From: a virus
Virus record (IMG/VR): IMGVR_UViG_3300017729_000001
Coordinates: 26,430 to 90,429 of that record
Length of the DNA: 64,000 nucleotides
Strand: one strand, 5' to 3'
Shown here: positions 1,272 through 63,432 of the stretch, piece by piece
Position numbering within the stretch: the stretch's first letter is position 1
Layout: every line of letters starts with the position of its first letter
The notes under the pieces: model-generated
Told to the model about the DNA's origin: nothing
Database searches by the model: none
The model's input: only the letters and a program-made list of their open reading frames with translations
Position numbers and translations under genes: made by a program

Positions 1272-1554
1272 AATTCATGTCTAATTCTTGTTTCAACATA
1301 TGGTCTGACTCAATATGGTACAGCACTTCAATCTCTCCACTGTGTAAAAGAACTTTGTAACCATCATATTCAAATACTTCAAGTTCAGTTCCTTTAGATG
1401 TCACTATTATTTCTGACGGCACCTTAACCTCTTTTATTGGTTGCTTATCCAGTTTTATCTTATCTAGGTCAAAGTGGTTAATGATATATATGTAACCAAA
1501 GAAACCAGCTGAGAATATTATTACACAATACAATATGTTCTTTATCAATCTCAT
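1264..1554 (-). CDS. Single-pass membrane protein
   Basis: 96 residues. Residues 4-26 are hydrophobic (LIKNILYCVIIFSAGFFGYI) and form one transmembrane segment or uncleaved signal anchor. The remaining 70 residues are charged and mixed alpha/beta, expected on the outer or periplasmic side. The start codon overlaps the stop of the macro-domain gene upstream (TAATG). No family recognised. A small inner-membrane phage protein of this shape could be an Rz-like or host-interaction factor, but the sequence does not decide this. Confidence 0.6.
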   Translation of the reverse strand: MRLIKNILYCVIIFSAGFFGYIYIINHFDLDKIKLDKQPIKEVKVPSEIIVTSKGTELEVFEYDGYKVLLHSGEIEVLYHIESDHMLKQELDMNYE

Positions 1555-1967
1555 TAGTTCACGTTTTTAATATTATCCCAAAATTCTTTCGGCAAACTTA
1601 CATTTCCAATGAATAAACATTCGCTGAACATCGGTGCTATTTCTGAATATTCAAAGCCAGCAATTCCGCATCCTATCGCAGTGACGATGTATTTTTTGTT
1701 TTGGTTCACTTTTACATGTTCGATGAATCTCTGTACGAACATTTTTATGTCCTCTAATTCCATTCTGCCGTCACTCGTAAAATCTACTGTTGGTATGGCA
1801 TAAGTTTGTCCTGATTCACCCTCTTCCATTCCCCAATCAGCACCGAATTTCTCATGAGCAATTTTAGCAGCACCACCTACATGTTCGCCTTGCATATTAC
1901 TTCCAAAAACGAAAATCTCATGACTTTTCAAATTGGTTATTTCTCCTATGGTTATTTTTCCTTTCAT
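1554..1967 (-). CDS. Macro-domain-like phage protein
   Basis: 137 residues. The motifs IFVFGSNMQGEHVGGAA, then QTYAIPT, then VTAIGCGIAGF and IAPMF follow the arrangement of the phage-associated macro-domain-like group (A1S_2505-type proteins). Macro domains bind ADP-ribose and related nucleotides; the GSN and GGAA loops would contact the ligand. In this phage an ADP-ribose binder is of interest because a putative ADP-ribosyltransferase is encoded at 58125-60446. Start and stop codons overlap the neighbours on both sides (TAATG), so it is part of a tightly coupled run. Confidence 0.78.
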   Translation of the reverse strand: MKGKITIGEITNLKSHEIFVFGSNMQGEHVGGAAKIAHEKFGADWGMEEGESGQTYAIPTVDFTSDGRMELEDIKMFVQRFIEHVKVNQNKKYIVTAIGCGIAGFEYSEIAPMFSECLFIGNVSLPKEFWDNIKNVN

Positions 1968-8094: not shown

Positions 8095-8564
8095 ACTACA
8101 CCATTTAAAATTAAGTTATGTTTTCTTGCTTGTCCAGCTAAATAATCAGCACGTTCATTATGAACTACACCTGAATGTCCTTTCACTTTTACAAACTTTA
8201 CTCTCAACAACTTTGAGTGATACAAATATAACATTTCTTTCCAAAGGTCAGAATTTTTAACTTCATCCCAATCCATTTCCTGCCATCTTATGTACCATCT
8301 TTCAATAAAACAATTAACTACATAAGCACTATCTGAATAGACCTCTATTTTGATATTTGGGTGCGAATGAGTTACATAGTTCAACCCTTTAATAACTGCT
8401 AGCATCTCCATTCTATTTGAAGTGGTTTCTTTTTCAAAACCTAAGTCTTCAAATATCACTTTGTCATTCTTGATTAGAACAAACCCCCAACCTCCAAAAC
8501 CTTTAGTTGCATTGCTTGGATTATTGTTACAAGAACCATCTGTCCATATTTGGTATTTATCCAT
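8091..8564 (-). CDS. rnhA: Ribonuclease HI
   Basis: 157 residues, the usual length for RNase HI, which cuts the RNA strand of RNA:DNA hybrids and removes primers. The four metal-binding acids are visible in order: D9 (IWTDGSC), E53 (SNRMEM), D78 (VYSDSAYV) and D140 (NERADYLA), with the catalytic-loop His130 in VKGHSG. The glycine-rich GGWGFVL turn is present. It probably removes RNA primers laid by the TOPRIM primase at 26330-27289. It starts 12 bases after the hairpin at 8576-8602. Confidence 0.95.
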   Translation of the reverse strand: MDKYQIWTDGSCNNNPSNATKGFGGWGFVLIKNDKVIFEDLGFEKETTSNRMEMLAVIKGLNYVTHSHPNIKIEVYSDSAYVVNCFIERWYIRWQEMDWDEVKNSDLWKEMLYLYHSKLLRVKFVKVKGHSGVVHNERADYLAGQARKHNLILNGVV

Positions 8565-8575
8565 ATTAATTTTTT

Positions 8576-8602
8576 AAAAATGGGAGGTGCTTGCCTCCCA
8601 TT
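8576..8602 (-). terminator. Rho-independent terminator (stem works on both strands)
   Basis: Stem TGGGAGG with CCTCCCA, extendable to 9 bp by flanking AA/TT, 6-base loop, then TTTTT on the minus strand. It sits between the 88-residue gene and rnhA. Confidence 0.8.
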
Positions 8603-8634
8603 CTTGTGTTGAAGTTCATCGAAAAAATGACAAC

Positions 8635-8901
8635 TTATTTACCAAACACTTCAACAGTTTCATGTTCTGCTTTAAATACTCCACCATGCTCATGTAGTGG
8701 CTTTTGCAAAACAAGTAATTCTTTATATGTCCTGAGCACTCCTGAGCTATTCGGCACTGCCTCAATCAACTCCTTATTATTAACTTTGAGTGTGTAGTAA
8801 GTCATTTGTCCTAGCAATAATATCTCTGGTTTTATTTTCTTCTTTTTTAAAGCCTTTATTTGCTTTTCAATTTCCGCATCTATGTTCTTTGCGCTTTTCA
8901 T
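8635..8901 (-). CDS. Hypothetical protein (88 aa)
   Basis: 88 residues. The N-terminal 25 residues are Lys-rich and helical (IEKQIKALKKKKIKPEILLLG), the rest mixed. It overlaps the UvrD-like helicase gene upstream by 4 bases (ATGA), so it may be made with it. No family recognised. Confidence 0.58.
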   Translation of the reverse strand: MKSAKNIDAEIEKQIKALKKKKIKPEILLLGQMTYYTLKVNNKELIEAVPNSSGVLRTYKELLVLQKPLHEHGGVFKAEHETVEVFGK

Positions 8902-10394
8902 AATTCTTCAAATTTCAAAATTTCCTTCACTTCTTCAGTTGCTGTATCGTAATCATTCAAGTATATTAACTTTGACTTTGCCCTAGTTATAGCAACATAT
9001 CTTAAATTTTCTTCTTGTTTTAGTTCCCAATCTTGTACGGCAAATTTACTGGGTATCAATTCAGGACAAAGTATATGTACTGTCTCATTTTCTAACCCTT
9101 TTGATTTATGGATAGTTGATAAACAAACCCCCACATTGTCTCCATCCTTAAAAATAGCCTTGATTCTGTCTTTTAAGTCTTTTGTGTACGTCAATCCATT
9201 ACTTAGAATATTAATGATGTCAATCTTATTCTTTAGCATGTCAATCCTATCGGTGTTGTCTGGATTTTTTACTCCCAAATTTACCAATCTCCTACGTTCC
9301 CCATTCAAGTTTCCTTTTAGTTTTACTTTCATGGACTTGATATTGGCTGTAGCAGTCTTATTTACCATCGAAATCAGATTCAATCCTATATCTGCCCCTC
9401 TTACGAATGACTTCACATTATTCGCTAGTAAATACATATTCAATATTATCAATGGCTTAACATTTCTACACAATACCCAATCACCCTCTTTTATGTCTTC
9501 GATGAATCCTGTTCTAACTTCCCCATCATCATTTTCTGAGTATGCTTCAATCTGGTCGTTAATTAGTTGTGCTTCAAATACTATTCTTTTTCCACACCTA
9601 TAATTTACTGACAAAGGCAATTCTATGGTCTTAGAATGTAGGTGCTTTAAGTTCATATAACTATCTACGTCAGCACCAGCAAAACCATATATTGCTTGAT
9701 TTGGGTCACCAACTGCTATCATCCGACCTCTTCTGGTCTTAATTCTCTTGATAATCATCTGCTGAATCTTAGACAAATCTTGACTCTCATCTACAAAAAC
9801 TGAATCGAATTTACTAACTGATACATCATCTTTGATAACCCTATAAATCATATCAGTGAAATCAAAATTCCTAGTGTCATTATTCATACCTCTTAGAATC
9901 TTATCCAACCTTTTACAGTCCTCTTCATCTATTAGAAATGAATGCTTTTCAGCTAGTTCTATGACCTCATCAGTTTCCTCTATATAGTTTTGCCTCATGA
10001 GGTCAAGAATCTTAGAATATGTGAAAAAATAATAGTTCAATTTTTTCTCCTTGATTCCATCAGCCATACAAACTCTTTTTATAAAAGGCATTGACTTATT
10101 AGGCTTCAGGTCGCACTTATACTTATAATGAGTCATTAAAGCCTTCCAACAAAATGAATGCATGGTTGTTATATTGACTCCATCCCTTTTTACTCTACTT
10201 CTAAGTTCATCAACTATACCATTATTAAACGCCACAAAAATAGATGTATTGCTAAGTGGCAATCTATTAAGACACTCTATCAAAGTTGTAGTTTTACCTG
10301 AACCTGCCACCGCAGAAATAACTACGTTTGATGACCCATTTTCTACTTCTTGATATATGTCTTTTTGGTATTTTGAATAATTCAAATTATTCAT
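8898..10394 (-). CDS. UvrD/Rep-like superfamily 1 DNA helicase
   Basis: 498 residues from ATG 10394. A longer frame to 10463 exists, but its first 23 codons overlap the gene upstream and the family alignment begins at MNNLNYSKYQKD (Q motif). Motifs in order: Walker A AVAGSGKTT at 28-36, Walker B VDESQDLS near 205, motif III GDPNQAIYGFAGAD, and motif VI VAITRAKSKL close to the C-terminus. SF1A helicases of this type unwind DNA 3' to 5' in repair and recombination, or remove proteins from DNA. It lies with the recombination genes gp46/gp47/UvsX, which supports a repair or recombination-dependent replication role. Confidence 0.9.
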   Translation of the reverse strand: MNNLNYSKYQKDIYQEVENGSSNVVISAVAGSGKTTTLIECLNRLPLSNTSIFVAFNNGIVDELRSRVKRDGVNITTMHSFCWKALMTHYKYKCDLKPNKSMPFIKRVCMADGIKEKKLNYYFFTYSKILDLMRQNYIEETDEVIELAEKHSFLIDEEDCKRLDKILRGMNNDTRNFDFTDMIYRVIKDDVSVSKFDSVFVDESQDLSKIQQMIIKRIKTRRGRMIAVGDPNQAIYGFAGADVDSYMNLKHLHSKTIELPLSVNYRCGKRIVFEAQLINDQIEAYSENDDGEVRTGFIEDIKEGDWVLCRNVKPLIILNMYLLANNVKSFVRGADIGLNLISMVNKTATANIKSMKVKLKGNLNGERRRLVNLGVKNPDNTDRIDMLKNKIDIINILSNGLTYTKDLKDRIKAIFKDGDNVGVCLSTIHKSKGLENETVHILCPELIPSKFAVQDWELKQEENLRYVAITRAKSKLIYLNDYDTATEEVKEILKFEEL

Positions 10395-54524: not shown

Positions 54525-56018
54525 TTATAGCGCACCGATGTTAATGAATCTAACCATTTTCTTTGGAGCATATAAGAAAGGTGTTCCGTACATTAAAATC
54601 ATGAATCTGTACGCTGGAGAAAGAACAGCCAAGTCCATTTTCATTAATGGAGCAAGTTGAGCAAATTCTACAACTTCATTATCCATTTGGAATAGGACAG
54701 CTTGGTCTGTATTAGGCATCCATCTGTTTCTATCTCTTACGATACCAGCAGCACCTCCGTCATAACCAGCAGTCTTTTCAGCTACTGAGATATCATATAA
54801 AGGATACAACTTACTAGCAGCAAATGAAGGCGCACCAGCCTGACTTCTATAAACTCTATATGAGGTAGCAACTTCAGCACCACCGCCATCTGTAAAGTCT
54901 AATTCAACCGCACCACCAGCGACAGCCGCAACAGCAGCACCGCCAATTTGAACAGCAGCACTTTCTCCATTTCGGTTGATAGCAGTTACAGCATATATAT
55001 AGTTACCCGCATCTGAAGCATTCCATCTTGAACTTGCGTCAGTTGCTACACCAGCAATAGTATTTGATACTACAGCATTCGGAGCATTCGGTGAAGAAGC
55101 ACCTGTTGTAGAAGAAATCGTTGGTAACTTCTTAGCAAAGATGTCCCAGTTCAATCCAATTCTTCCAAATTGAGAATCGAATGATTGAACTCTTTGACCC
55201 ATAATACCAGCAGCAGTCATATCACTGTTAGGCTGGATAAACTTATTACCATAGAATCCTTTAACGAAATCACTCATCACCTTTGGTGGAGCAAATAATT
55301 GGTTACCCAATCCAAAGTTCTCTACAATTCCGTTTGAAGCAGTTTCGATAGCATCTTCATTCAAGGCTTGACCTCTTAAATCAACTACGACTTCTGAATC
55401 CATATAAGAATCAAGATTCAACCAGTTATCATTTCTTTGGTGTTGAGCATAGAAACCATTGAACTCTTGAGGTGTTAAAGCCTCATCACCGAAATAAAGT
55501 GACTGATTCAATTTTCTAAGAATCCACATCGTTCCGTTCTTAATTTCTCTTTCAACGATGTTCCCAACCATATTGTTAACTAAGGTCATTGGGTGTGTTA
55601 CTGATTTCACAACTCCCATGAACTTAACTAACTGAGCACGTCTTACATATAGAGAATCTTCTTCATTCGGCAATTCGCCTTCATTATAGAATCCACCTCT
55701 ATTAGTACCATACGATGCTAATTGATTATATTCTTCAACTGTGTTGTAAGCAGACTTTTTTGGAACAGTCTTCCAAAGAGCAATATCATTCTCTTTAAAA
55801 GTAAGATGTTTCAATGTCTTGTCAAGACTTTCAACTTTTAATGGAGCACCAGATGCTGTAGATAGGTCAGTTGTTTCACGACCAGAAATACTACCAGCTT
55901 CGAGTGCTTTGTTCAATTGGTTCAACTCTTCCATGTTTGAACCTCCGAAAACTGCACCCTGGCCATTACCATTAGCAGCAGCGTTTGCATAATCGGCTAA
56001 ATTTAAACCTAAACTCAT
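54525..56018 (-). CDS. Major capsid protein with Ig/FN3-like insertion
   Basis: 497 residues. N-arm (1-70), HK97-type core with DIALWKTVPKKSAYNTVEEY and EVVVDLRGQALN, then an inserted Gly/Ala-rich beta domain (about 330-425: NYIYAVTAINRNGESAAVQI and ATSYRVYRSQAGAP) that looks like an Ig or fibronectin type III fold, then a P-domain-like end (AVLSPAYRFMILMYGTPFLY). The start has an AAAGGAG sequence right before the ATG, a stronger Shine-Dalgarno than most genes here, and a terminator follows, in line with high expression. Confidence 0.88.
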   Translation of the reverse strand: MSLGLNLADYANAAANGNGQGAVFGGSNMEELNQLNKALEAGSISGRETTDLSTASGAPLKVESLDKTLKHLTFKENDIALWKTVPKKSAYNTVEEYNQLASYGTNRGGFYNEGELPNEEDSLYVRRAQLVKFMGVVKSVTHPMTLVNNMVGNIVEREIKNGTMWILRKLNQSLYFGDEALTPQEFNGFYAQHQRNDNWLNLDSYMDSEVVVDLRGQALNEDAIETASNGIVENFGLGNQLFAPPKVMSDFVKGFYGNKFIQPNSDMTAAGIMGQRVQSFDSQFGRIGLNWDIFAKKLPTISSTTGASSPNAPNAVVSNTIAGVATDASSRWNASDAGNYIYAVTAINRNGESAAVQIGGAAVAAVAGGAVELDFTDGGGAEVATSYRVYRSQAGAPSFAASKLYPLYDISVAEKTAGYDGGAAGIVRDRNRWMPNTDQAVLFQMDNEVVEFAQLAPLMKMDLAVLSPAYRFMILMYGTPFLYAPKKMVRFINIGAL

Positions 56019-56071: not shown

Positions 56072-57676
56072 TTATTGAACAATGTTTACGTTATGTTCTG
56101 ATTTTAGTCTAGCAATAACATTTTCATCTAGTTTGCCACCAGCTTCAAAGCTAGTTACTGCCTTTCCAAATTCTTCGTCATATCCTCCTTTATTAAAACA
56201 AGCACTGTCTAGTATATTGATAATTGCTCGCTTATGCTCTGTCGTATTTAACACGGCAGAACCACTACCAGCTTTCTCAATGATGTCTCCACCACCGAAC
56301 TTTTTATCAGTATAACCTTTAGTGATTGATTTTCTTCCAGTTGATTGACCAGATAAGTTTTCAACCATATCAAGTGCCTTTTGCAAATCTGCTCTAGTGG
56401 CACGTAATTCTTTATTTGTCCTGAACAACTTTCCTTTAATAAGGTCTGTGTTATCCATTGACGCTTTCACTAACTGAGCAAGTGCTCTAACATTAGCAAC
56501 ATTTTCTTCTTTGAATTCAGAAATAGCTTTAATGAGTTCAGGTGAACCACCTTTCTTCATATCTTTCTCCATGTCGGCTTCATCGTCAGCACAGTACTTA
56601 CCTTTCTCAGTTTCCTCATCCTCATCCTCATCTTCTGCGCTTGGGTTTCCCTCTCCATCTCCGCCATAGACTTCTTTATCAATCGCAGCAGCTACATCGT
56701 CAGCAGCTTTCTGAACTGTCTCGTCATCCATTTTTTCTTCATCTTCGCCCTCATCTTCATCTTTCATAAGTGCGAGGTCACCATCTGGTTTGTCAAATGA
56801 TTTTTTTGCCTTTTCAAACAATGGAGACTCACTTGGATCAATTCCCAAATGACTCATTGCTTTTTCAAGGTCTTTGTCAGTTATTTCTTTTCCTTTAGCC
56901 ATAGCCATTTCTATTTTATTTAACAGATTGTTGATTTGTTCTGCCTTTTCAATACTAATACCTGGTAGTGATTTAAAAATAGTATCATACCTTTTTTCTT
57001 CAGACATTTTTGCTACTTTCACGCCATCTACGCTTTCAGGCATAGTTGCCCGACCAGAACTTGTGTCGAGTGTTTTCTTTACATCAATTTCATCTTCTTC
57101 ATCCTTTTTTACGCAATTTGGAACTTTCTTGCCACCCTTATCTTTTGTTCCAATCATTTCGTAACCATCCCAACATGGGTCATTACCTTTTATAATATCG
57201 GCAAATGTTTGCGCATTTTTAGGCATGTGTGTAATAGCCAGACCAGTAATTTTCGCTTGTTTGACTATTTTTGGATTTTGTATATCTCTTTCAATTACTG
57301 AACCTTCAATACTGTAACCTAATCTACGTGTTTTTGAATCTTTTTGTAATACCTCAGCCAACTCATATACCTCTCTTGCTAAATCGCTAGTTGGATACAA
57401 ATCTGTTTCTACATAAAACCCATCTTTTCTTACTTCTGCTTTTTTCGGCTCACCTATAATGGTAGCTGGACTGTTCTTAGCTTGATGGTGCCAATTTACT
57501 ACACCTGACTTTTTAAAATCTGATATATCAAATCCACTTGGGTCAAGAAATTCGCCATCGGCATCTTTATCCATAGTTGAAGCAATGCCACCTAATCGCA
57601 TAACTTCTTTACCATCTTTATCTTTAGCCTTTGAAATTTCAACAGGACACCAAAACTTAAATCTTTGTTCTGCCAT
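56072..57676 (-). CDS. Prohead protease fused to acidic scaffold-like region
   Basis: 534 residues. 1-160: prohead serine protease fold with VVNWHHQ (His63/64) and RRLGYSIEGSV (Ser122), the catalytic pair of the S78/U35-like group. About 165-190: the recurring phage motif PCWDGYEMIGTK, then KKVPNCVK. 200-340 is acidic and helical, likely the scaffold part, followed by a helical region and a basic C-terminus. The protease would cut scaffold and capsid N-arms. It is directly upstream of the capsid gene. Confidence 0.84.
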   Translation of the reverse strand: MAEQRFKFWCPVEISKAKDKDGKEVMRLGGIASTMDKDADGEFLDPSGFDISDFKKSGVVNWHHQAKNSPATIIGEPKKAEVRKDGFYVETDLYPTSDLAREVYELAEVLQKDSKTRRLGYSIEGSVIERDIQNPKIVKQAKITGLAITHMPKNAQTFADIIKGNDPCWDGYEMIGTKDKGGKKVPNCVKKDEEDEIDVKKTLDTSSGRATMPESVDGVKVAKMSEEKRYDTIFKSLPGISIEKAEQINNLLNKIEMAMAKGKEITDKDLEKAMSHLGIDPSESPLFEKAKKSFDKPDGDLALMKDEDEGEDEEKMDDETVQKAADDVAAAIDKEVYGGDGEGNPSAEDEDEDEETEKGKYCADDEADMEKDMKKGGSPELIKAISEFKEENVANVRALAQLVKASMDNTDLIKGKLFRTNKELRATRADLQKALDMVENLSGQSTGRKSITKGYTDKKFGGGDIIEKAGSGSAVLNTTEHKRAIINILDSACFNKGGYDEEFGKAVTSFEAGGKLDENVIARLKSEHNVNIVQ

Positions 57677-57712: not shown

Positions 57713-58123
57713 TCAAATCTCCAAAACTCCTATATCCATACAATTAGAAAACAAGAATGAATATAACAAGTCTTGTTTTGTTTTTGGATTTTTACTTTTA
57801 AAGTCTGCCTTGGACATTGCCTTTAAATCTAAAAAGTCACAAAAGGCATCGTGTATGAAAACTATTTTTTCAGCTTTAACAACAACTGACTTGATTGCGT
57901 CTGAGCAGTCTTTAAATAAATGCGTTTCCATAGTCTTGTCTAAAAAGACTTTTTGGTCATTAGGGTCAACTAATGGAAACTTGCCTTTGAATGGCAATAA
58001 GTCACATGGCTTCTTTTTATATAGAACTGAACTCACTTTCCCAATTCTATTGGTTGTGAACTTATTTCTGTGTAGTTGGTCGCTTTCTAACCCACCATCT
58101 TTCTCTTTTATAAAGTATTCCAT
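57713..58123 (-). CDS. Hypothetical head-module protein (136 aa)
   Basis: 136 residues, mixed alpha/beta, four Cys scattered. No family recognised. It lies 1 base after the kinase/ADP-ribosyltransferase-like gene and 36 bases before the protease gene. It might be an immunity or folding partner of the neighbour or a packaged protein; sequence alone does not tell. Confidence 0.58.
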   Translation of the reverse strand: MEYFIKEKDGGLESDQLHRNKFTTNRIGKVSSVLYKKKPCDLLPFKGKFPLVDPNDQKVFLDKTMETHLFKDCSDAIKSVVVKAEKIVFIHDAFCDFLDLKAMSKADFKSKNPKTKQDLLYSFLFSNCMDIGVLEI

Positions 58124-58124
58124 A

Positions 58125-60446
58125 TTACTTAAATTTTCTCACTTTACATTTTCCTCTATTCAAAATAACCGCAAAGTCAGTTTTACCACCCCAACCATTT
58201 TTCTGTACAATAGCATCATACCCTTTTATCGCAGCATAAAACCCTCTGTACTCACCATTTGGTCTTTTCGCTATCTCTAGCATGACTTCATCTAGTGTCG
58301 AACTTCCTACACCTCTCAAGTTATTTACCTCATCAGCAACTGCTTTTAATTTTTGTTGAGCATCTTTTGCTTCTTGCTTTACTTTGTCTATTAGGTCTGA
58401 GTTTTTAGTCCTTTTTGCTATCTCCTTATTTATTTTGCCATAATGTTCTTTTACAACAAAATCTCTTAATCTTGAGTAATGATAATTATATGGCTTGCTG
58501 TATTCATTCTTTTGCTTCAAACTTCGTCCAGCAACTGTTTCGCTCATTATAAATTTATCTCCAGACAATGGTAGTTCAATGCTAATAGCATTTCCATTAT
58601 CATGCTCTTCCACGACAGCACCTAATTGACCAACCAGCGTTTCATAGTATCTTTTTACTTTTCCAAAGCTATGAACTTCTGGGTCAGCATATACAATATC
58701 TGCTCTTGAATTCAATGCGTTTAAAACCTTATCATTCCAACCCATTTCTTCTTTGGTATCGTCAGCAATAGTCTTTTCGATATTGTCTGCTTTATCTTGT
58801 AGAGCATCTACTTCAACTCTCAATTCATCATACTCTTTTTTCTTCTCCTTAAACTCTTCACCAAAGAACTCATCGTTCATCATGGTATCTAGTTCGTGAG
58901 CGTCAATCACCTTGGCATCTTTATCCAAACAAATATCTATAATCGCATCAGAGTCATAACCAGCGTAATCATAAGCAATTTGATAATCTTCATTAGGTGG
59001 TGGTGGATTTGATTTTTTCTTATTTACGGCAGCATAAATTCCTGCTCCATACATTCCATATCTACCATAGAAACAATCTTGATTGTCTGTGAAGTCCTTT
59101 TTAACTGATTGAGCATTTAGTCCGCCATATCCAGTCACACCTCTTTGTAGCAATTTTGAATCTTTTTCAGCAACTAATTTATCAAACTTGGCACTATTAA
59201 TAACCTCTGGTGTAGCATCAAAACCTCTCATCTTACATAATTCAGATAAGAACTTCCAACCCACTTTAGAATCTTGGTTTGTTATATGTCCACCAGCTTT
59301 TTTAAGTGCCTTTTTGATATCCGCATCTTCAAACTCTCTATATGGGTCAAGTTTTGAATAATCAGTATCATCCATTCTTGCCCTTAAATCAAAAAACCTC
59401 TTAGCCATCTTCAACTTTAGGTCTTTATCTTTTATATGACCCAAAACTGCTTTCTCTTTAGAAAGAACATCTTTTAATTGAGTATTGATTTCAACTTGAG
59501 TAATCTTACCTGTGATTTGAAGATTATGAGAAATCATTGATTCCAGTTCATTAACTTCGTCTCCAAAGTCATCCCCCTTATCACGACCTTGCGCTGAGAA
59601 TCTTAAAGAGCCACCATTATCCACTCTATAAACCATCCCATCATCCTTGTTGACTAAGATATTATCATTCTTATAAGCATCCCAATTAGCCAGAAGACAA
59701 TCGGCAACAAACCCTTTCATTATCTCTTTCTTCAGGTTGTCATCTAGCACGCTATTTGCGTCCACTGTGTTATCCATATACTCAGACAAAATAGTGTCGT
59801 CATTATATAGTTGCATCTTAGGAACAGTAACACCTAACTCATCGTAAATTTGAGTAGCAGTATATTCATCTTGAACGTGCTCTGGTGAGGCACCTTTTTT
59901 CATGACAAACTTTTTACCTGTGTCTGGGTCTTCAACTAATAAAGCACCTGTTGAACCCCCTAGTGTCTTACCAACCTTTTTTAGCTTAGTCAAGTCAGTA
60001 GGAAAATCATCATAGTTCTTTGGTGTCTTTACTTTCTTAGGTTGCTTTGTCGCTCTACGCCAATCAAGTTTTCCACTCTTAGTCTTTTTGACGACATACA
60101 TGATTCCACTCTTAACTTTCGTGTCACCTTCAACCAGAGCCTTAAATAGTTCTTGATTTGGTTCTTCTCCACTTAGGAAATCATTAAATGTCTTCGCTTT
60201 TATTAAACCGAATTTTTCAGGTGGTGTCCAATTTGTCTTTTCTCTTACAGAAATAGATGCTTTGATTAAAATCTCGTCAGGTATCAACCCCTTTGAATTT
60301 GAATCAACTATCGTATTGAATGCTTGAATTATTCCACCCTTGTAAAATTCGCTGTTATCGTTTCCACACTCATGGCAAACGAACATGTCGTGACCACCAT
60401 CTTCAGATGGCCACGACCAGTTACAATTTCTACAAGAAATCTCCAT
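58125..60446 (-). CDS. Polyvalent protein: zinc ribbon, kinase-like, ADP-ribosyltransferase-like
   Basis: 773 residues. 1-30: zinc ribbon (C5xxC8, C24xxC27). 115-132: KTKSGKLDWRR motif, also present in the next gene upstream. 155-290: HipA/PI-kinase-like fold with GGSTGA (163-168), FVMKK (Lys183/184), Glu194, LLANWDAYKNDNILV (251-265) and YRVDNGGSLRFSAQG. About 432-470 and 735-773: ADP-ribosyltransferase-like parts (LQRGVTGYGG, RYGMYGAGIYAAVN, then KGYDAI and FAVILNRGKC), separated by a coiled-coil insertion. By location it may be packaged and injected, as T4 Alt is. Target unknown. Confidence 0.75.
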   Translation of the reverse strand: MEISCRNCNWSWPSEDGGHDMFVCHECGNDNSEFYKGGIIQAFNTIVDSNSKGLIPDEILIKASISVREKTNWTPPEKFGLIKAKTFNDFLSGEEPNQELFKALVEGDTKVKSGIMYVVKKTKSGKLDWRRATKQPKKVKTPKNYDDFPTDLTKLKKVGKTLGGSTGALLVEDPDTGKKFVMKKGASPEHVQDEYTATQIYDELGVTVPKMQLYNDDTILSEYMDNTVDANSVLDDNLKKEIMKGFVADCLLANWDAYKNDNILVNKDDGMVYRVDNGGSLRFSAQGRDKGDDFGDEVNELESMISHNLQITGKITQVEINTQLKDVLSKEKAVLGHIKDKDLKLKMAKRFFDLRARMDDTDYSKLDPYREFEDADIKKALKKAGGHITNQDSKVGWKFLSELCKMRGFDATPEVINSAKFDKLVAEKDSKLLQRGVTGYGGLNAQSVKKDFTDNQDCFYGRYGMYGAGIYAAVNKKKSNPPPPNEDYQIAYDYAGYDSDAIIDICLDKDAKVIDAHELDTMMNDEFFGEEFKEKKKEYDELRVEVDALQDKADNIEKTIADDTKEEMGWNDKVLNALNSRADIVYADPEVHSFGKVKRYYETLVGQLGAVVEEHDNGNAISIELPLSGDKFIMSETVAGRSLKQKNEYSKPYNYHYSRLRDFVVKEHYGKINKEIAKRTKNSDLIDKVKQEAKDAQQKLKAVADEVNNLRGVGSSTLDEVMLEIAKRPNGEYRGFYAAIKGYDAIVQKNGWGGKTDFAVILNRGKCKVRKFK

Positions 60447-60454
60447 AATTTGTT

Positions 60455-61951
60455 TTAATTTAGACCTAGTTGAGTCAACGCTTTTTGAAGGTCATTACCT
60501 TTCTCTTCAGAAAGTGTGATACCTTTTTTCAAGAATCTGCCAACTTCCTCTTTCCAGTCTTGTTCTTCACCGAATATTAAGGAAGCAGTTGTTGGGTCAG
60601 ACTCAATCATTGCATTTGAGTTGTCCACTGCTCTTTTCTTAACTAATGCTTCCATGAAAGTTCTTGAACTAAACTTATCTGGGTCCATCGCATCAATATT
60701 GTCTTTAATCATGTCAAACACTTCCTCACGTTCTTGAATATCATCGGCTTTATTTTCTAGCCTTTCAACACCTGTGAAATTCGTTTTGTGTTTTAGAATT
60801 TCCATCATCTCCAACTTTTCTCTTTTCGTGAAATTCAAGTCCTTTTTAATTGCTCTCGTGTAGATAGCATTCAAGTGCTCATTTTTCGTTAAGTCATGTT
60901 GTCCCATATTCGTCAGAAATAATATTTTTCCTGTGAACTCAAATGGGTCAACATTAGTTGATTTGTTTGAAGATTTTTTACCCAAAATTCTTTTACCTGA
61001 TGACGCAGTAGCTTTTTTCATAATACCCATAGTATCTGATTGCTTCAGTACATTATCAGAATCGTCAAACACGATTGTTTTTCCATTATGCTCTTTAAGT
61101 AAGGAAACAAGTTGAGTGTCTGATTTTACTTCTGGTGCTTCTACATAATCGTAATCATCATCTCCAGGCTCATCAGTTTCTCCGTTGAAAGCCTTATTGC
61201 CCATATGCTCAGCTACCAAGTGCATATTATAAGACTTACCTACACCTGCTCCACCTGACGCTATCATTAATGGAGAGTCAGTTGCGAAGAACTGCGCATA
61301 AGTCCTATTCAAACTATGAATTTCTTTTTGTGGCTCAATGTATCCATCTTCCGCAGTTTTCTGAGAATGTATAAACGCATCTGCTTCAATACGCTGTCTT
61401 TTAGTTTTTAGACCTCCAAATTGCTTTTTGATGAAGTCTGGGTTTCGCCAGTCCTCTTCCATGCCTGGTTCATCATCACCTCCTACTATATCATCAACGC
61501 TATCTCCATCAGTAGCAGTAGCAGTTTTCTTTGAGCTGTTCTTTTTAGAACTTCCGTCACCTCCAAATGCCTCTTTCATTGCTTTGAACTTTCCTGTGTT
61601 CAAATTAATTTTAGATACATCTTCACCTCTCGCTACAAGTTCATTGTATGACTCTTGTCTTAAAGTTGGATCATTATTATGTCCTCTGGCATATTTCTCT
61701 AGGTCAGCAACATCTTTTTTCTTCAGCGTTGCTCTTAGCTTTTGAACTTTATTTTGAGTTTGTTGAGCACCCCCTTGTCCAGAACTGCCTTTTGGTGGAT
61801 TTTTTCTCCAATCGTATTTTCCTGATGATAGCCTTGTCCAATATCTGGTCACTCCATCTTTTCCGATTTTAGTATCACCCTCTTGACGTGCTGCTGCTTT
61901 GGTCAAGTTTTGGTTGACTAATTCTCCAATGATATCTGATGTTTTTTTCAT
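60455..61951 (-). CDS. AAA+ ATPase with N-terminal phage motif
   Basis: 498 residues. N-terminal 30-50 carry GVTRYWTRLSSGKYDWRK, similar to a motif in the 773-residue protein. A charged linker with Lys/Thr/Asp runs follows. AAA+ core: Walker A SGGAGVGKSYN near 235, Walker B TIVFDDSDN near 292, sensor 1 ILFLTN near 342, then a helical lid. Such ATPases occur near portal genes of some large phages; possible roles include remodelling of virion proteins. Its exact substrate is unknown. Confidence 0.78.
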   Translation of the reverse strand: MKKTSDIIGELVNQNLTKAAARQEGDTKIGKDGVTRYWTRLSSGKYDWRKNPPKGSSGQGGAQQTQNKVQKLRATLKKKDVADLEKYARGHNNDPTLRQESYNELVARGEDVSKINLNTGKFKAMKEAFGGDGSSKKNSSKKTATATDGDSVDDIVGGDDEPGMEEDWRNPDFIKKQFGGLKTKRQRIEADAFIHSQKTAEDGYIEPQKEIHSLNRTYAQFFATDSPLMIASGGAGVGKSYNMHLVAEHMGNKAFNGETDEPGDDDYDYVEAPEVKSDTQLVSLLKEHNGKTIVFDDSDNVLKQSDTMGIMKKATASSGKRILGKKSSNKSTNVDPFEFTGKILFLTNMGQHDLTKNEHLNAIYTRAIKKDLNFTKREKLEMMEILKHKTNFTGVERLENKADDIQEREEVFDMIKDNIDAMDPDKFSSRTFMEALVKKRAVDNSNAMIESDPTTASLIFGEEQDWKEEVGRFLKKGITLSEEKGNDLQKALTQLGLN

Positions 61952-62007: not shown

Positions 62008-63432
62008 TTATGACCAATCAATAGGAACATCACATCCAAAGAATTCAGTCATGATTTTTTCACTTTGCTTAATAACTACTTCTGAATTTTCACCGCAAGA
62101 TAACCTCTTTAACTTTTTGGTACTCATAGAATTATCAATGACTCTTTTCATATTTATCACTGGGTCAAATAATATCTGAGCCAACTTAAAGTTATGCTGA
62201 ATGTCCTCTAAGTATTTTTCACTTTTCATTTTTAAGGCTTCATTTAAGTAACCAGCAAACTGCTTTGGAGTAACATCCCATGGTACATATATTGCTCGCA
62301 GTTCTTCATGAATGATATCTTCAATTTCGCATTTTGGTTCCACCAATCCTCTAGTATCTCTCAACACAGGATATGAACCATTAATGATAGCTTCAATAGT
62401 GAAACCATTTAAGTGCGTATTTGAATATTGAGCATAGTGCTTACTGAATGAAGGGTCAACGCTGAACTTAGCATTTTTCTGAACCATATACACATCTTCA
62501 TTAGACATGAAACCCATATGCTCCATTCCGTGTTTTTTAGCACGTTCCCATAAACTCATTCCTATTTCATCAGGGTCACAATCTGGGTCAGTTTTTAATG
62601 ACGCTGTGTATTTAGGCTTGAACTTGCTTTCATCAGTAGTGGTCATATAATATAGCTCTATTCCACTACCACCTATCCACATGCTAGAGCCTTTATTCAG
62701 ATGTGGCGTCAATGATAATAAATCTTCCATCTTTTTCATAGACTTAAACACATGAGCCGCAAAAAAGTCAACTGGTCGTTCAGACATTGTAGTCAAGTGT
62801 AGATTGTCTGGAATGTACCTAGATGCGAAATTTAATTGTCTTGGTATATCGAAATTATCACAACAGTTGTACGCTGATAAATGTACGCAATCTAGTAAAG
62901 TAATTTTTTCACTTAGGTATCTTATCCAACTATTTCTGATATCAAAATAGCCATCGTGAACTGCCATTACTTGCTTAGTTCTTTCTGGTAAGTCAAAAAA
63001 CTTCGGCCAAAAGTTTAACCCCTTTGCTTCTTTAGTCTTGGTTGGCGTAAAACTCCAGAACACTAAATCTACATCTTCCAAAGCCTTATGCCATAACTCT
63101 AATGCGTTGTCAGCAAATATTGGTATTCTATTAGTATATGGAGGCAGTAACCAACCATAGTAGGAATTTCTCCAATAACCAGTTATTTCAGATTTTGTAT
63201 AACCCCCAGCCTGTGACCTATAATCTTGCTTGTCTTGCCAAACACCATCTTCAAGGTCTTTAATCTTTTTGTTGTAAGAATTAATTGGAATGGTTTTGTT
63301 ATAAGTAAGGAATATGATATCAACATCGTGACCCATTTCCTTAAACGCTTGAACTCTGCTTTCTACGTTCTTAACAATACCGCCATACTTAGCAATGTCA
63401 AACGTACAAATTCTAATCTTTAATTTTTTCAT
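62008..63432 (-). CDS. GT-B glycosyltransferase, GT4-like
   Basis: 474 residues. N-terminal Rossmann domain: KIRICTFDIAKYGGIVKNVE and RVQAFKEMGHDVDIIFLTYN, the 'GG..........L...GH.V.hh' pattern of GT4 enzymes. C-terminal domain: MGFMSNEDVYMVQKNAKFSV, GFTIEAIINGSYPVL and DTRGLVEPK, where the Glu of FTIEAI corresponds to the donor-binding motif. It would transfer a sugar to virion proteins, DNA or host structures. Position in the head module makes capsid or fibre glycosylation a possibility. It overlaps the gene upstream by 20 bases. Confidence 0.82.
   Translation of the reverse strand: MKKLKIRICTFDIAKYGGIVKNVESRVQAFKEMGHDVDIIFLTYNKTIPINSYNKKIKDLEDGVWQDKQDYRSQAGGYTKSEITGYWRNSYYGWLLPPYTNRIPIFADNALELWHKALEDVDLVFWSFTPTKTKEAKGLNFWPKFFDLPERTKQVMAVHDGYFDIRNSWIRYLSEKITLLDCVHLSAYNCCDNFDIPRQLNFASRYIPDNLHLTTMSERPVDFFAAHVFKSMKKMEDLLSLTPHLNKGSSMWIGGSGIELYYMTTTDESKFKPKYTASLKTDPDCDPDEIGMSLWERAKKHGMEHMGFMSNEDVYMVQKNAKFSVDPSFSKHYAQYSNTHLNGFTIEAIINGSYPVLRDTRGLVEPKCEIEDIIHEELRAIYVPWDVTPKQFAGYLNEALKMKSEKYLEDIQHNFKLAQILFDPVINMKRVIDNSMSTKKLKRLSCGENSEVVIKQSEKIMTEFFGCDVPIDWS

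Follow-up and report, generated by a model that had tools for sequence, protein, structure and literature searches.

What would a phage gain from encoding, beside its capsid genes, a single protein that joins a kinase-like domain to an ADP-ribosyltransferase (ART)-like domain? We addressed this question for a gene in IMG/VR virus record IMGVR_UViG_3300017729_000001 (90,429 bases), of which bases 26430-90429 were analysed; this stretch of 64,000 nucleotides is hereafter called the window. The gene is an open reading frame (ORF) of 773 amino acids (aa) with an ATG start and a single uninterrupted frame, and the longest stop-free frame in 20 shuffled sequences of the window's base composition was 263 codons. 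An earlier note on this DNA had read in the ORF a zinc ribbon, HipA/PI-kinase-like motifs and ADP-ribosyltransferase motifs, and had placed it beside the capsid genes. The ORF and all the cited motifs are real, those of the kinase and ART-like domains being kept in 11 orthologues at 27-68% identity, and the genes for the prohead protease and the major head protein do lie just downstream. The reading that we consider probable is that the product is loaded into the virion and injected as a two-enzyme effector, kinase and ART, that modifies the host.

Searches of Pfam, PHROGs and PDB sequences with the 773-aa protein alone returned nothing useful, and querying IMG/VR with the single sequence retrieved no relatives; alignment queries were required to reach those in IMG/VR. 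Homologues of aa 142-360 were found in 19 annotated phage records, 467 IMG/VR stretches and 84 genome stretches. The Pfam families HipA_C and HipA_2 scored below threshold (12.6-14.7 bits against a cut-off of 30.5), and a PDB profile search with the kinase gave a weak match to CtkA. The AlphaFold2 model of this domain, built from 57 sequences, had a predicted local distance difference test score (pLDDT) of 91.2 and a predicted template modelling score of 0.85, and its best solved-structure matches in Foldseek were Legionella HipT (8ezs, 1.4e-5), Helicobacter CtkA (3akk/3akl), PI4K, RIO2 and HipA (3dnt, 4pu5). Structure prediction thus gives a kinase fold, and the model places the domain in the HipA/CtkA/HipT fold class. 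The HipA half of the likeness claimed in the earlier note is borne out, whereas the resemblance to PI-kinases is distant, PI4K ranking below HipT and CtkA.

The kinase motifs comprise GGSTGA (aa 163-168), K183, E194, NWDAYKNDN (254-262) and VDNGG (275-279). Non-redundant relatives retain the catalytic residues almost without exception: K183 in 139/139, E194 in 139/139, D256 in 139/140, N262 in 140/140 and D276 in 139/140. Because these residues are kept in essentially all of the ~140 non-redundant sequences, an active kinase-type ATP site is very likely; phosphorylation and AMPylation are both compatible with the sequence and the predicted fold. Membership in Kinase-PolyVal was rejected, as PF18762 does not match (profile match 0.25%), and this phage-head kinase family is not defined in Pfam. 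No adjacent HipB-type antitoxin gene was recognised: one neighbour encodes an AAA+ ATPase, the other a 136-aa protein that has no Pfam match. Bacterial genomes, too, contain the kinase domain (four loci; Legionella longbeachae, the Pseudomonas syringae group and Oxalobacter), in some with an ART before or after it.

The ART-like domain that follows is a member of an unnamed family that occupies a terminal position in phage minor head proteins (phrog_16619, phrog_4611; >80 IMG/VR stretches) and whose common motifs are GFDxxP, RG, GxYGxGxY, GYD and LNR. In the window protein the motifs are RGVTG (aa 435-439), GMYGAGIYAA (464-473), KGYDAI (741-746) and VILNR (760-764). Three polar residues are near-invariant, R435 (61/62), Y471 (62/62) and D744 (37/37), as expected at ART strands 1, 2 and 5 (R/H - S/Y - E/D/Q), so that after alignment the catalytic residues are kept in both halves of the protein. 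Profile-profile comparison matched the domain to two ART families of Pfam, namely to ART-PolyVal relatives (82%, E 1e-5), with the R aligned with the H of YHGT, and to R-S-E ARTs of the ADPrib_exo_Tox type (77%, E 2e-5); five unrelated families used as controls each gave 1% or less. From the residue pattern and these matches we judge that the domain very probably belongs to the ART superfamily, and the predicted chemistry of the R-Y-D domain is NAD-dependent. On a 327-kb virus contig (L098:7641-14225), we also observed a cluster of five genes that encode the R-Y-D ART-like domain, each product being about 330-345 aa long.

The combination of the two domains recurs among relatives. The 11 full-length orthologues (about 700-806 aa) all hold the kinase and an R-Y-D ART in one chain, and every orthologous locus long enough to judge has one and the same gene order (AAA+ ATPase - kinase/ART - 136-aa gene - prohead protease - major capsid protein), interrupted in some by 1-3 small genes ahead of the protease. 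In Gordonia phage Phendrix gp66 this kinase/R-Y-D ART pair extends across 1479 aa. Enterobacterial, Aeromonas, Morganella and Pseudomonas phages combine the kinase with an R-S-E ART that comes after it. An ART was present in 50 of 115 non-redundant complete relatives (14 R-Y-D and 36 R-S-E; ART first in six); as the 115 were collected for their similarity to this kinase, the rate is not unbiased. A MuF domain was found in 30 of the 115, and MuF-kinase fusions occur with and without an ART. That the kinase has been fused repeatedly to ARTs of two unrelated types suggests joint action of the two activities, in takeover or counter-defence.

Further arrangements were recorded among the relatives' loci. 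Portal, kinase and ADP-ribosyltransferase are fused in one chain of 1253-1626 aa at five of them. NUDIX proteins often act on ADP-ribose or NAD; NUDIX domains or genes are linked to kinase relatives at several loci, and at two the order is a NUDIX-kinase-ART fusion, which would set ADP-ribose-processing chemistry on one chain.

Indications about delivery come from these relatives. Fusion to a portal or MuF domain places kinase relatives at the portal vertex, and the Gordonia relatives are encoded adjacent to the portal gene. Yersinia phage fHe-Yen8-01 gp129, a kinase relative, is labelled 'phage particle associated protein' in its record, and the two genes after it, for a 159-aa protein and a NUDIX protein, are likewise labelled particle-associated; our literature search did not find the paper on the fHe-Yen8-01 proteomics behind this label.

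A candidate loading signal lies near the N-terminus of the window protein, which is ordered as zinc ribbon (aa 5-27), module (aa 101-136), kinase (aa ~142-360) and ART-like domain (aa ~364-773). The zinc ribbon described in the earlier note is present, but it was seen in the window phage only and is absent from all 11 orthologues examined and so lies outside the conserved machinery. The module, in contrast, is shared. A hidden Markov model (HMM) built from aa 101-136 of the kinase-ART proteins alone matched a segment close to the N-terminus of the AAA+ ATPase (E 3e-8 for one orthologue, 3e-6 for the window), and after HMM iteration the module was detected in nearly all AAA+ orthologues and in proteins of two sister phages with HExxH-type zincin motifs; module loci were recorded at L361, L024:167-1261 and L014:6217-7662. 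The diverse internal proteins of T4 likewise have only a capsid targeting sequence in common (PMC3012670). By this analogy, the shared module may be a virion-loading tag, or it could be a small binding domain. The 'EGDTKxG...GxW' repeats of the Yersinia-type proteins are alike by eye, and were rejected as module copies after giving no score with the module HMM.

In the mechanism that we propose, the protein would be made late, together with the head proteins, would be loaded into the prohead, perhaps through the N-terminal 34-aa module, and would enter the cell with the phage DNA. The HipA/CtkA-like domain would then use ATP to modify host proteins, with translation or transcription factors as the likely targets by analogy with HipA and HipT, and the R-Y-D ART domain, in the manner of T4 Alt, would transfer ADP-ribose from NAD to host macromolecules. 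We put forward only tentatively a bolder version, in which the kinase family is coupled to ADP-ribosylation (e.g., one domain marks the substrate of the other) and the N-terminal module, which kinase-ART, AAA+ ATPase and zincin-type proteins have in common, is a cargo tag that loads different effectors into the head, comparable to the capsid targeting sequence of T4 without being related to it. Such functional coupling would explain why the kinase has been paired independently with ARTs of two unrelated types, whether on portal, MuF or stand-alone proteins.

Several observations weigh against an injected two-enzyme effector. The TM-scores of the kinase are moderate (0.4-0.5). The ART-like domain has no curated match in Pfam, among PDB sequences or among PDB folds, and Foldseek of the whole ART-like model (pLDDT 90) against the PDB returned no ART, only helical proteins, a failure probably due to the long helical insertion; the BFVD matches of the model are unnamed phage proteins. 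The ADP-ribosyltransferase identity suggested in the earlier note is supported by the R-Y-D pattern and the profile match, but not by the fold search. In addition, no ART was detected in 65 of the 115 relatives, the role of the module as a loading tag rests on correlation, and packaging of the window protein, which is most likely, is inferred, because the evidence for delivery consists of the portal and MuF fusions of relatives, head-gene synteny and the label on one relative. By the same analogy, the window protein would be injected.

These observations leave room for other roles. The kinase could be a regulator that phosphorylates its own ART, or portal or head proteins, and so silences the ART in the producer cell or times its release, the ART alone acting on the host. 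HipA-type kinases are known to self-phosphorylate, and a kinase that adjoins two ART types and sits on portal and MuF proteins fits a role towards its neighbours in the particle. Nevertheless, many kinase-MuF relatives are without a detected ART, so control of an ART cannot be the sole job, and no immunity-like partner was recognised, the 136-aa gene without a family remaining a candidate. We consider this explanation unlikely.

A smaller probability still attaches to a toxin directed at competitors or defences, which on delivery would serve chiefly to kill the recipient or arrest it, or to counter host defence or competing phages, and not to remodel transcription or translation for phage growth. 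HipA and HipT are generally known as growth-arresting kinases (see also PMC10627512), and a role as toxins delivered by phages has been proposed for MuF-linked ARTs (PMC5576092). However, no immunity gene was recognised, and the 90-kb record, with its sheath and head genes, gave no sign of a temperate life style, although lysogeny genes were not systematically searched. Equally improbable is a structural or morphogenetic protein whose two domains would bind partners during head assembly or portal closure, with vestigial or particle-internal chemistry: head-cluster synteny in all orthologues and the fusions to portal and MuF would suit it, but the near-complete retention of catalytic residues in both domains across very diverged sequences is not expected of vestigial enzymes, and the ART partner is exchanged between unrelated types.

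Parts of the proposed virion-loaded effector are already known, namely injected ARTs (T4 Alt), polyvalent proteins (PMC5512222, PMC9503650) and MuF-linked ARTs (PMC5576092). Phage polyvalent proteins are multi-domain effectors near head genes, rich in ARTs and sometimes containing kinases, that are predicted to be packaged and injected (Iyer et al. 2017). The window protein resembles them in having at least two effector domains in one chain near head genes; it differs in that its kinase is not of the Kinase-PolyVal type and its ART is R-Y-D and below Pfam detection, whereas theirs is H-Y-D (PF18760). Like T4 Alt, it is encoded in the head cluster and would be packaged and injected; unlike Alt, it has an additional kinase domain, an R-Y-D instead of an R-S-E ART and a different phage lineage, and Pfam and PHROGs gave no ART family match that would indicate an Alt-type R-S-E domain. 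With HipA, HipT and CtkA, it shares the fold, according to Foldseek, and the Lys/Glu/Asp/Asn/Asp catalytic set, but the loop between the catalytic Asp and Asn (D256/N262) is longer, no HipB partner is recognised, and the kinase shares its chain with an ART, is encoded among phage head genes and falls under the HipA_C/HipA_2 cut-offs.

Among phage proteins, Yersinia fHe-Yen8-01 gp129 (WOL24339) and its homologues in Aeromonas ST4, Pseudomonas Dolphis and Morganella Mecenats66 also have a homologous kinase followed by an ART; these differ in their R-S-E ADPrib_exo_Tox ART, their length (1177-2253 aa) and a NUDIX gene two genes downstream. Gordonia phage Phendrix gp66 and GodonK gp67 contain both the kinase and an R-Y-D ART and are encoded just after the portal gene, but they span 1479 aa with a long unrelated middle region and are unannotated. 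For MuF polymorphic toxins, injection has been proposed for ARTs linked to head proteins (Jamet et al. 2017, PMC5576092), and the same kinase family occurs as MuF-kinase-ART; the window protein, in contrast, is without a MuF domain, and the text of that paper mentions no kinase. The literature searched, which left out many subscription papers, yielded no description of the kinase family, its recurrent pairing with ARTs or the shared module.

The features of the locus are collected in Table 1. The major head protein is closest to those of Bacteroides (48%) and Chryseobacterium (40%) phages, and several head and tail genes of the record match the same phages; therefore, the host probably belongs to the Bacteroidota. 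The portal gene (contig 8152-9036) is not adjacent to the kinase-ART gene, lying ~12 kb upstream if the genome is circular. The gene at 62008-63432 was rejected as a portal, as it has no portal profile match and the true portal is elsewhere; this conserved 474-aa gene on the minus strand, upstream of the AAA+ ATPase, has a start that resembles a GT4-type glycosyltransferase, which is unusual for a head cluster. In the prohead protease, aa 163-205 hold a CW.GY...G.K.K.GK.VPNCV segment common to several unrelated phage families (phrog_9737, 4359, 22379). The 136-aa product, to which no family was assigned, could be a partner, inhibitor or chaperone; the analogous gene in Yersinia-type phages was compared and is unrelated. 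A 1459-aa protein upstream of the capsid gene in Chryseobacterium phage MA9V-3 was rejected as a counterpart, since Pfam gave no match and its sequence looks like that of a tail fibre. The earlier note had further suggested that a macro-domain protein (1554-1967, minus strand) could read or remove ADP-ribose. This gene matches phrog_2072 (E 3e-37) and has a counterpart of 59% identity in the closest sister phage; as an effector partner it is a weak candidate, with a Pfam score below the cut-off (17.9 against 22 bits), a distance of ~56 kb and presence in the contigs, mostly fragments, of 2 of the 11 relatives.

Table 1. Coordinates of the features in the window.
Feature	Position	Strand	Basis or remarks
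Kinase + ADP-ribosyltransferase-like polyvalent protein, coding sequence, 773 aa	58125..60446	-	ORF call and orthologue comparison
Zinc ribbon, aa 5-27, CxxC...CxxC, lineage-specific	60366..60434	-	Sequence; cysteines C5/C8...C24/C27
N-terminal 34-38 aa module, aa 101-136, KA..xGxTKxxxGxxYxxxxTxxGKxDWR; candidate virion-loading tag	60039..60146	-	HMM
HipA/CtkA-like kinase domain, aa 142-360 (K183, E194, D256, N262, D276)	59367..60023	-	AlphaFold2, Foldseek, alignments
ADP-ribosyltransferase-like domain, R-Y-D type, aa 364-773 (R435, Y471, D744)	58128..59357	-	Alignments, profile comparison
Insertion within ART-like domain, aa ~529-714, mostly long helices; missing from short homologues	58305..58862	-	
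AAA+ ATPase (phrog_1250), directly upstream of kinase-ART gene	60455..61951	-	Bears the same N-terminal module as kinase-ART
Second module copy, in AAA+ ATPase, about aa 20-55	61787..61894	-	HMM
136-aa gene, directly downstream of kinase-ART, 1-bp gap	57713..58123	-	Partner in all orthologous loci
Prohead (head maturation) protease	56072..57676	-	phrog_1028, E 9e-36
Major head protein	54525..56018	-	phrog_752, E 4e-90; 48% identity to Bacteroides phage DAC19

The packaging of ARTs is known from T4 and has been predicted for many other phages. If the window protein is packaged, a kinase and an ART in one protein would provide two ways to modify host proteins before any phage gene is read. The shared N-terminal cargo module, if real, would make other injected proteins of these phages findable by sequence alone. 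That phages infecting widely differing hosts combine the same kinase with two ART types and with portal and MuF proteins points to a strategy of general use, which annotation pipelines overlook because these proteins are mostly called hypothetical.
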